Shown: in pieces, positions 19,861 to 22,902 of the stretch
How positions within the stretch are numbered: position 1 is the stretch's first letter
Layout of the letters: each line of letters opens with the position of its first letter
NCBI GenBank assembly: GCA_944320385.1
Contig: CALUHH010000010.1
Span: forward strand, 1-64,000
Length of the DNA: 64,000 bases
Direction: 5' to 3'
Source: an uncultured Atopobiaceae bacterium
Lineage (GTDB): Bacteria > Actinomycetota > Coriobacteriia > Coriobacteriales > Atopobiaceae
Notes under the pieces: generated by a model
Databases searched by the model: none
Told to the model about the DNA's origin: nothing
Seen by the model: the letters and a program-made list of their open reading frames with translations, nothing else
Position numbers and translations under genes: made by a program

Positions 19861-19872
19861 GCGATCTCCTGG

Positions 19873-19945
19873 TGGGCGATGACGGGTTCGAACCGCCGAC
19901 CTTGTGCGTGTAAGGCACCTGCGCTAGCCGCTGCGCCAATCGCCC
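19873..19945 (-). tRNA. tRNA-Val (anticodon TAC)
   Basis: A 73-nt cloverleaf on the minus strand with acceptor GGGCGAT/ATCGCCC, anticodon loop CTTACAC (anticodon TAC) and T loop GTTCGAAC. The outermost anticodon-stem pair looks like a G-A mismatch. CCA is not encoded. Confidence 0.93.
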
Positions 19946-20009: not shown

Positions 20010-21539
20010 ATGACTACGCTTGCAGAGCTCGCGCGCACCCTCGAAGAGGCGGGCATCCTCACATCCCTGACGCCAGGTGCGGACGTCAGCGTCTCCGGGG
20101 CCTCCTGCGACTCGCGCACCGTCGCCGCCGGCGAGCTCTTCGTGTGCAAGGGCGCGACCTTCCGCCCCGCGTTTCTCTCCGACGCCGTGGGGCGGGGCGC
20201 CGTCGCCTACCTCTGCGACGCCGACCACGCCGCCGAGCTCGCGGGCGTTGCCCCGGGCATCCCCGCCCTCGTGACGTCCGACCTGCGCCGAGCGATGGCG
20301 CTCTGCTCCGCGCAGGCCTTCGGACGCCCCGACCGCGACCTTCCGATCGTGGGCATCACGGGCACCAAGGGCAAGACGACCACGGCCTACATGCTGCGCT
20401 CGATCGTGGACGCGGCACGCGGCGAGAAGTCCTGCGGGATGATCGGCACCGTGGAGACCTATGACGGCGTGACGGACGAGCCCTCGAGAAACACCACGCC
20501 CGAGGCCCCTGACCTCTGGCGCCACCTCGCCCGCGCGCGCGACGCCCGCCTCTCCGCGCTGGTCATGGAGGTCTCGAGCCAGGCGCTCAAGTACGACCGC
20601 ACCTTTGGCGTGGGCCTGGACGTGGCCTGCTTCCTCAACATCGGCCTCGACCACATCTCCCCCGTCGAGCACGCGGACTTTGAGGACTACTTCACCTCCA
20701 AGCTCAAGATCTTCTCGCAGTGCGGGACGGCCGTGGTGAACCTCGACTCCGACCACGTCGACCGCATCCTCGAGGCCGCCGCGCACGCCCCGCGCCTGCT
20801 GACCTTTGGCGTCGGGCGGCCCGACGCGGACGCCTGGGCGGACGGGCTCGCCGCGTCCGAGGAGGGCATGACCTTCGTCCTGCACCTCGACGGCTGGGAG
20901 CGCCACGTGAGCCTGCCCTTCCCCGGCGACTTCAGCGTCTCCAACGCCCTTGCGGCGGCGCTCGCTGCGCACCTGCTGGGCATCGGGCCCGACGCCATCG
21001 CGGGGGGCCTCGCCGCCACGCGCGTGCCCGGCCGCATGGAGTTCTACCGCTCCCGCGACCGCAGGCTCACCGCGGTCGTCGACTACGCCCACAACCGCCT
21101 CGCCTTTGAGTCGCTGCTCTCAGCGGTCTCCGGCACCTTCAAAGACGCCCAGGTCATCGCCGTGTTTGGCGCCGTCGGCGGCAAGGCCGAGGAGCGCCGG
21201 CGCGACCTGCCCGAGGTGGCCGCGCGCTACGCGGACCACATCGTCCTGACCTCGGACGACCCGTGGACCGAGGACCCGCTCGACATCTGCCGCGAGATGG
21301 AGCGCGCGCTGCCCGCAGGCTTCCCGCACGAGATCGTGGTCGATCGCGAGCAGGCCGCGCGTCGCGCCTTTGAGCTGGCAGAGGGCCGGCGCAGCGTGGT
21401 CCTGCTGCTCGCCAAGGGCCACGAGGCCTACCAGCACACGCGCGAGGGCTTTGTCCCCTGCGTCTCCGACTGCGAGCTCGCGCGTCGCGGCGTCGAGGCC
21501 TACGACCGGGCGCACCCCTCCGAGCATCAGGATGCCTGA
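20010..21539 (+). CDS. murE: UDP-N-acetylmuramoyl-tripeptide synthetase (MurE)
   Basis: Adds the third amino acid to UDP-MurNAc-L-Ala-D-Glu in peptidoglycan synthesis. The 509 residues comprise the UDP-binding domain (1-110), the ATPase domain with P-loop GTKGKTTT (118-125), NTTPEAP, MEVSSQAL and FLNIGLDHISP, and the C-terminal ligase domain with VPGRMEFY and VVDYAHN. The position that reads DNPR in diaminopimelate-adding enzymes is DDPW here (TSDDPWTEDP), so the diamino acid should not be assumed to be meso-diaminopimelate. GGAGG lies only one base before the ATG and TATACT ends 6 nt upstream. The stop overlaps the next gene. Confidence 0.95.
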   Translation: MTTLAELARTLEEAGILTSLTPGADVSVSGASCDSRTVAAGELFVCKGATFRPAFLSDAVGRGAVAYLCDADHAAELAGVAPGIPALVTSDLRRAMALCSAQAFGRPDRDLPIVGITGTKGKTTTAYMLRSIVDAARGEKSCGMIGTVETYDGVTDEPSRNTTPEAPDLWRHLARARDARLSALVMEVSSQALKYDRTFGVGLDVACFLNIGLDHISPVEHADFEDYFTSKLKIFSQCGTAVVNLDSDHVDRILEAAAHAPRLLTFGVGRPDADAWADGLAASEEGMTFVLHLDGWERHVSLPFPGDFSVSNALAAALAAHLLGIGPDAIAGGLAATRVPGRMEFYRSRDRRLTAVVDYAHNRLAFESLLSAVSGTFKDAQVIAVFGAVGGKAEERRRDLPEVAARYADHIVLTSDDPWTEDPLDICREMERALPAGFPHEIVVDREQAARRAFELAEGRRSVVLLLAKGHEAYQHTREGFVPCVSDCELARRGVEAYDRAHPSEHQDA

Positions 21540-22401
21540 CCCCACCCTCATCGGCGTGGTCGCGGGCGAGCACGACCGCGCGGTCATCGCGACCGCCCTG
21601 CGCTGCGTCCTGGACGGCGGTGCCCCCTATGAGCACGTGGGCGTCATCGGTGGACGGGAGGTCTTTGACGGTGCGGAGTTCGCGCGCGGCGCCGATGCCG
21701 CCGCCGAGCTCGCCCGCCTCGAGGAGCACCTGGAGCACGCGCGCGCAGCGGGTCTCACTCACCTCGTGCTCGAGCTGCCCGACCGCGTCCCGGGCGAGAG
21801 CGACCTTCCCGCCCTCGACGTGCTCTGCTCGCTCGGCCCGGGCGGGGCGGGCACCGTGCGGGGGGCGCGCCGCAGCCTGAGCTTCTCCTCGCGCGGCACG
21901 CTCGCGGACGTGGGGTCGAGCCACGAGCGCGCCGGCTACGGCTTCGTGCAGTTCCGAGCGCATACGCCGAGCTGGGACGCCGACGTGGCGCTCCCGCTGC
22001 CGGGCATCTTCAACGTGGCGCCCGCGCTGGCGGCCGTCGCCACCCTCGAGCTTTTGGGCCGCGGCGCGCGCGGGGTGCAGGAGGGCCTCGCCTCGTCCGG
22101 CGTCCCCGGCCACGGGGAGCTGCTCTTCTCGCCCGACCAGCGCGTCTGCGCCATCGTGGAGCAGAGCGCGAGCCCCCGCGACCGCCGGCTCATCACCGAG
22201 GCGGCGCGCGAGGAGTTCGAGGGGTTTGCCCTGGAGGTGCTGACCGAGCTCGACGCGATCGAGCCCGCCGTCGCCCGCGGCTACGGGAGGCCGAGAAGGA
22301 CGTTGCTCGTTCTTCTCGGCCGGCCAGGAGAGGCCTATGCGGACGCCTTCCAGGCGGCGGTGCGCCGGCACTTTGCCTGGACCGGGCGACAGCAGGAGTA
22401 G
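21532..22401 (+). CDS. MurE-like pseudo-ligase lacking the ATP-binding loop
   Basis: A 289-residue protein whose ATG overlaps the murE stop by 8 nt. It can be laid along MurE from the ATPase domain onward: LIGVVAGEHDRAVIATALR against IVGITGTKGKTTTAYMLR, then HVGVIGGREVFDG against GMIGTVETYDG, LPLPGIFNVAPALAAVATLELLG against LPFPGDFSVSNALAAALAAHLLG, and VPGHGELLF against VPGRMEFY. The P-loop lysine and threonines are gone and the UDP-binding N-terminal domain is missing. It is therefore probably a non-catalytic partner or regulator made together with MurE. Homology is by eye; function is unknown. Confidence 0.7.
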   Translation: MPDPTLIGVVAGEHDRAVIATALRCVLDGGAPYEHVGVIGGREVFDGAEFARGADAAAELARLEEHLEHARAAGLTHLVLELPDRVPGESDLPALDVLCSLGPGGAGTVRGARRSLSFSSRGTLADVGSSHERAGYGFVQFRAHTPSWDADVALPLPGIFNVAPALAAVATLELLGRGARGVQEGLASSGVPGHGELLFSPDQRVCAIVEQSASPRDRRLITEAAREEFEGFALEVLTELDAIEPAVARGYGRPRRTLLVLLGRPGEAYADAFQAAVRRHFAWTGRQQE

Positions 22402-22423
22402 CACCTGCGCCGGCAAGCGTTCT

Positions 22424-22452
22424 CCGGCCAGCAAAGATCTGTACTTTGCCGG
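22424..22452. other. Stem-loop after the murE pair
   Basis: GCAAAG, a 7-nt loop and CTTTGC, flanked by CCGG and CGG arms, lies just past the pseudo-ligase stop. No T-run is present. It is a candidate weak terminator or RNA 3'-end structure. Confidence 0.4.
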
Positions 22453-22602
22453 AGCAGTCGAACGCATTCATCTAAGAAACCGCTGGTAGAAAACTTGTGC
22501 TTGCGTGCACATTGTTTGGGGCTTGCCATAAAGTACAGAAGTTTGGCCGCCGCGTCGACGCGGGTCAGGTATCGTAGGTGCCCCCATCTGGAAGGAGAAG
22601 GA

Positions 22603-22902
22603 GTGACACTCAAGGGAAGGCAGGTCAGGCAGCTCCGCAGCCTGGCGCATCATCTGGAGCCTGTGGTCATCATCGGCAAGGCGGACGTCAACGAGGGCAC
22701 CGTCGACCAGGCGGACAAGGCGCTCGAGGCGCGCGAGCTCATCAAGTGCTCCGTGCTCGACTCCTCGAGCCTGGACGTGCGCGAGGCCGGCGAGGAGCTC
22801 GCGGAGCGCTGCCATGCCGAGCTCGTGCAGGTCATCGGCCGCAAGTTCGTCCTCTATCGCGAGACCAGCCGCGAGGGCGTCGAGAAGATCCAGCTCGTCT
22901 AG
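22603..22902 (+). CDS. yhbY: YhbY/CRS1-type RNA-binding protein
   Basis: A 99-residue single-domain RNA-binding protein linked in other bacteria to ribosome (50S) assembly. The GTG start follows GGAAGGAGAAGGA. Family features are LKGRQVRQLRSLAHHLEPVVIIGKADVNEG and the late RCHAELVQVIGRKFVLYR. It lies about 200 nt after the murE pair and so probably has its own promoter. It ends at a repeat array. Confidence 0.92.
   Translation: MTLKGRQVRQLRSLAHHLEPVVIIGKADVNEGTVDQADKALEARELIKCSVLDSSSLDVREAGEELAERCHAELVQVIGRKFVLYRETSREGVEKIQLV

Follow-up and report, generated by a model that had tools for sequence, protein, structure and literature searches.

The window analysed here, a stretch of 64,000 nucleotides from an uncultured Atopobiaceae bacterium, carries a second MurE-derived gene that overlaps the 3′ end of murE and whose product, judged by its sequence, is very probably a pseudoenzyme; we refer to it as pseudo-MurE. 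Taken as a whole, the protein is best explained as a neofunctionalised pseudo-Mur-ligase that would be co-translated with MurE and act as its partner or regulator, not as a catalyst, a reading to which we give about an even chance of being right. We infer that the genus of the window in GTDB equates to Thermophilibacter, a genus of gut bacteria.

A second reading frame overlapping murE

In the window, murE (20010-21539, forward strand) encodes an intact Mur ligase of 509 amino acids, of the type designated A below, with GTKGKTTT (Walker), MEVSS, SKLKIF, DYAHN and DDPW motifs. The pseudo-MurE gene (P0001; 21532-22401, forward strand) runs from an ATG at 21532 to a TAG at 22401 and encodes 289 amino acids. 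The TGA stop of murE ends at 21539, such that the two genes share 8 nt (21532-21539, forward strand), an arrangement that points to translational coupling; both the 289-residue frame and the overlap, reported in a preliminary description made from the window sequence alone, were confirmed. Several orthologues have an in-frame stop codon immediately 5′ of the equivalent ATG, and we therefore consider the ATG at 21532 to be the conserved start. The tight junction is a general feature: in all 16 orthologues pseudo-MurE starts between -8 and +9 nt from the murE stop, with the 8-nt overlap in the window, a one-base overlap (TGATG or TAATG) in six, a gap of 0-1 nt in four and a gap of 6-9 nt in five. 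No terminator-like site was found in the junction between the two genes, and pseudo-MurE is presumably made in step with MurE by co-translation. By contrast, the 3′ neighbour of pseudo-MurE varies among species, being a short gene at 22603-22902 in the window (YhbY-like, as judged by eye) and one of two different convergent genes in the others.

Two further features were observed around this locus. A tRNA-Val gene (tac; 19870-19945, reverse strand) lies immediately 5′ of murE on the opposite strand, and an open frame of 437 codons (21154-22467, reverse strand) runs antisense to the end of murE and to pseudo-MurE; long antisense frames are common in this high-GC genome, and this one looks like a composition artefact. 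The converse possibility, namely that pseudo-MurE is itself an antisense or random frame of GC-rich DNA, was rejected on the grounds of its conservation in 16 species, the codon-position bias of the differences between them and its predicted fold.

Relation to MurE and other families

Pseudo-MurE matched no Pfam family (including PF08245 and PF02875), its best score against the NCBIfam murE model was 25 bits compared to a curated cut-off of 551, and the MurF/MurE models of NCBIfam matched it weakly and far below their cut-offs, meaning that a routine annotation pipeline would probably assign it no name. Nevertheless, a BLASTP comparison with the neighbouring MurE gave an E-value of 2e-12 at 29% identity over residues 20-212. 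The adjoining MurE scored 74 bits, considerably less than the 117-136 bits obtained with Atopobiaceae-type MurE, and the C-terminal helix sequence DAFQAAVR matches the Atopobiaceae DIFNEAVR. We thus rejected the simple case of a recent duplication of the adjacent murE, while an approximately unbiased (AU) test did not formally exclude a clade of pseudo-MurE with type A MurE (p 0.113).

Two other identities were considered and rejected. Pseudo-MurE is not MurT, as the MurT_C domain (PF08353) was not matched in the Pfam search and the MurT of this genome is encoded on another contig (C2). Neither is it a defence or plasmid gene, as there was no PADLOC or plasmid match.

A predicted, trimmed Mur-ligase fold

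The AlphaFold2 model of pseudo-MurE, built with 15 orthologues as input, had a pLDDT of 90 and a pTM of 0.88. Its top Foldseek matches were MurE structures, and no non-Mur fold was present among the top matches as ranked by Foldseek. In VIA-align the best match was T. maritima MurE (4bub; Z 23.6, rmsd 2.7, 270 aligned residues), with residues 2-283 of the model superposed on residues 101-485 of the chain, closely followed by other MurEs and by plant PAP11. The most divergent orthologue in the genus (47% identity) was predicted to have the same order of structural elements (pLDDT 88.8). Accordingly, the Mur-ligase fold that the preliminary description had proposed to look for was predicted in both proteins, and the likeness to MurE that it had traced by eye from the ATPase domain to the C-terminal domain extends over both. 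We conclude with high confidence from these models that pseudo-MurE retains, in trimmed form, two Mur-ligase domains, the central (ATPase) one and the C-terminal one.

Loss of catalytic parts and a rebuilt pocket

Residues were compared between 60 MurE sequences and 16 pseudo-MurE orthologues (all positions given here are on the forward strand). Two losses that had been read from the window sequence alone hold up in this alignment: the UDP-binding domain is missing, with the first ~110 MurE residues absent and pseudo-MurE starting at around MurE residue 110, and GTKGKTTT is replaced by AGEHDRAV. The alignment additionally revealed two deletions that had been missed, one internal (~44 residues) and one in the C-terminal domain (~60 residues). 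AGEHDRAV, the former Walker A loop, comprises residues 11-18 (21562-21585), in which the Gly that is invariant in GK[T/S] has become Asp15 (16/16); the Walker A pattern GxxGK[T/S] was kept by none of 17 pseudo-MurEs, and the Walker A lysines are gone. The internal deletion junction (residues 102-111; 21835-21864) stands where MurE has a ~44-residue NIG.DHIS...SKLKIF segment; this includes the lysine that is carbamylated (K219 in S. aureus MurE) and that is believed to be required to position Mg-ATP (PMC3829189). With this segment deleted the lysine is absent, and Gly102 (16/16) takes the place of the invariant catalytic-segment Asn of MurE. Likewise, the diamino-acid motif (DNPR or DDP/DNPA) is absent from the pseudo-MurEs of the genus owing to the C-terminal deletion. 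Two motif residues found in 60/60 MurEs are substituted, the Arg of PGR by His194 (16/16; 22111-22113) and the Asp of DYAH by Glu210 (16/16; 22159-22161). Of the catalytic motif residues compared, only the invariant Glu of MEVSS is kept (Glu81; 21772-21774; 15/16).

Given the loss of the UDP-binding domain, the Walker lysines, the carbamyl-lysine segment, the catalytic Asn and the diamino-acid motif, pseudo-MurE should not carry out Mur ligation by the known mechanism, and the earlier suggestion of a dead ligase is strongly supported by this motif loss. At the same time, the replacement residues (D15, H194, E210 and G102) are themselves invariant, which suggests that the former ATP site was remodelled and has since been maintained, and is not drifting. 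Based on established knowledge of Mur ligases and on the alignment, Asp15, Glu81, His194 and Glu210 probably line the former ATP site. Such a near-invariant set of three acidic residues and a histidine, at a site that formerly held Mg-ATP, could belong to an active enzyme with new chemistry (e.g., a metal-dependent hydrolase). However, structural repair of an emptied pocket explains the same residues equally well, and no sequence match of pseudo-MurE to another enzyme family was found; we consider a new enzymatic activity highly improbable.

Distribution and selection

All 31 genomes of the genus contain murE, and 16 of them contain a full-length, intact pseudo-MurE, with orthologues 47-80% identical to that of the window. 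In each of these 16 members pseudo-MurE adjoins murE, the conserved neighbourhood that the preliminary description had suggested searching for. The remaining 15 lack the gene, several having short, clean gaps 3′ of murE, which shows that pseudo-MurE is dispensable. No full-length pseudo-MurE was found beyond the genus in the 398 class and 396 phylum genomes sampled; a search of the family yielded the sole carrier outside Thermophilibacter, a genome of genus g32 (G082).

Pairwise Nei-Gojobori dN/dS estimates, which are crude values for GC-rich DNA, were 0.24-0.49 for pseudo-MurE compared to 0.11-0.28 for murE in the same genome pairs. Pseudo-MurE therefore evolves faster than murE and, considering these values together with the 16 intact frames, is under constraint that is weaker than that on murE. 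Faster evolution, patchy presence (16/31) and progressive domain loss are what one would expect of a decaying pseudogene of a duplicated murE. This explanation is already contradicted by the lack of any frameshift or stop in 16 species, by dN/dS well below 1, by a fold predicted with high confidence and by the new invariant residues, leaving it a very slim chance.

Inheritance of pseudo-MurE and exchange of murE

Two types of MurE, about 51-55% identical, occur in the genus: type A, to which the MurE of the window belongs, and type B, which is the usual form in Atopobiaceae. Pseudo-MurE is much closer to type-B-like MurE than to type A. In the phylogenetic tree all pseudo-MurEs form one group (support 95/98) that adjoins the MurE of genus g32 (85/82), at a point where long branches meet. 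Carriers of pseudo-MurE are found in both main clades of the RpoB species tree, with which the main groups of the pseudo-MurE tree broadly agree, such that presence in an early ancestor followed by several losses is the simplest history.

Within one clade, closely related pseudo-MurEs adjoin type A murE in some species (G086, G107, G110 and G113) and type B murE in others (G097, G111, G087 and G099). As different murE types are thus found beside related pseudo-MurEs in close species, murE must have been exchanged while pseudo-MurE and the tight junction stayed in place; pseudo-MurE appears to have been inherited vertically, with the murE next to it changing from one type to the other. A type-A-like MurE also occurs in a different family of the order (L109, G393), which suggests that murE, an essential cell-wall gene, has been exchanged horizontally. 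One genome (G093) had two murE genes, one at C117:13669-15249 and the other on contig C174, with rpoB also present on two contigs, and this assembly is probably contaminated.

A related form at a native murE locus

The G082 form (L086:2719-3708) lies in the order mfd, pseudo-MurE, RlmI-like methyltransferase gene, tadA (the mfd and RlmI-like names were assigned by eye), at a position where sister species have murE. Its TGA stop overlaps the ATG of the next gene, and its 5′ DNA corresponds to the DNA upstream of murE in the sister species, with the match extending into the first codons. At three of the positions changed in Thermophilibacter it still has Gly, Arg and Asp, and less of its C-terminal domain is missing; the UDP-binding domain, the Walker lysines and the carbamyl-lysine segment, however, are already gone. 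The G082 genome, which is 68% complete, yielded no genuine murE. Either a tandem of murE and pseudo-MurE lost its murE, or a native murE was converted in situ, in which case a similar reduction took place on two occasions. The G082 and Thermophilibacter forms have 20 changes in common compared to 6.7 in shuffles; on sequence grounds these shared changes and the tree support (95/98) favour one origin of all pseudo-MurEs including that of G082. On the other hand, a separate origin of the G082 form was not rejected by the AU test (p 0.355), and pseudo-MurE may have arisen twice, given that this similarly reduced form sits in the native murE locus.

Possible function

Because the start of pseudo-MurE lies no more than 9 nt from the adjoining murE in 16 species, irrespective of the murE type, we propose a partnership with MurE or with the Mur assembly, for and against which we see the balance as roughly level. 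Most likely, its docking site would be MurE or the assembly of Mur ligases in the cytoplasm, contacted via faces inherited with the fold, and in this way pseudo-MurE would tune or scaffold UDP-MurNAc-peptide synthesis. The roles raised in the preliminary description, namely allosteric partner, stabiliser or sensor of precursor supply, are likewise hypothetical. Its rebuilt pocket (Asp15, Glu81, His194 and Glu210) would no longer accommodate Mg-ATP; it may have a different ligand or be structural, and of these roles ligand sensing seems rather unlikely. A specific version, in which the pocket binds another small molecule, reads the supply of precursor or amino acid and sets MurE activity accordingly as a built-in sensor subunit, is similarly doubtful.

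A special case of the partner or regulator reading is a dominant-negative or titrating regulator that competes with MurE for a partner (MurF, MurG or MreB) or for dimerisation, and thereby lowers precursor synthesis. The possession of the same fold without activity and the coupled production of the two proteins both fit this idea, yet constant coupled production makes a poor switch, and we regard it as improbable.

A strictly co-evolved partnership is weakened by the retention of pseudo-MurE through swaps of the murE type and by its dispensability, and its position beside murE may be no more than a remnant of a tandem duplication, considering the two MurE types and the G082 relative in which murE is not a neighbour. 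The main rival explanation is therefore moonlighting: the MurE fold would have been recruited outside peptidoglycan precursor synthesis, with the adjacency to murE reflecting the gene's origin or landing site together with convenient co-expression. In addition to retention through the type swaps, this explanation can draw on the G082 gene, placed between mfd and the RlmI-like methyltransferase gene, and on the precedent of PAP11, which also ranked among the best structural matches (Z 22.8). Coupling to murE in 16/16 species despite a changed 3′ gene would, however, be unexpected for an unrelated function, and we view moonlighting as possible though not probable.

Comparison with known systems

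Among kinases and proteases there are well-known cases of dead paralogues that regulate an active twin. Pseudo-MurE, too, is very probably a pseudoenzyme paralogue, in its case derived from a Mur ligase. A search of the open full-text literature gave no match for MurE together with pseudoenzyme, and no described counterpart was found. Should pseudo-MurE bind MurE, an essential target of antibiotics would have a naturally occurring modulator, whose interface could serve as a template for inhibitors of MurE. Moreover, MurE, the G082 form and the Thermophilibacter form make up a natural series of an essential enzyme becoming a non-enzyme.

With MurE itself (4bub, 2wtz/2xja, 4c12) pseudo-MurE shares the central and C-terminal fold (Z 22-24 over ~270 residues) and a clear sequence ancestry; it differs in having 289 instead of ~500 residues and in lacking the UDP-binding domain, the Walker A lysines, the carbamylated-lysine segment, the catalytic-segment Asn and the DYAH and DDP/DNPR motifs. 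The MurE-MurF fusion (8f5d), both modules of which we take to be ligases, resembles it in that MurE is physically coupled to another Mur-ligase module, whereas in Thermophilibacter the partner module is dead and a separate protein. PAP11 (8r6s, 9epc, 8xzv), a plant MurE-like subunit of the plastid-encoded RNA polymerase (PMC12681378), is likewise a MurE fold in a non-canonical, apparently structural role, but it is eukaryotic, full-length, keeps many catalytic residues and belongs to a transcription complex. Finally, MurT, which is related to Mur ligases, functions within a complex as one of its subunits (MurT/GatD; PMC11915815) and, unlike pseudo-MurE, has a MurT_C domain and pairs with GatD; a separate MurT was present in 30 of the 31 Thermophilibacter genomes.
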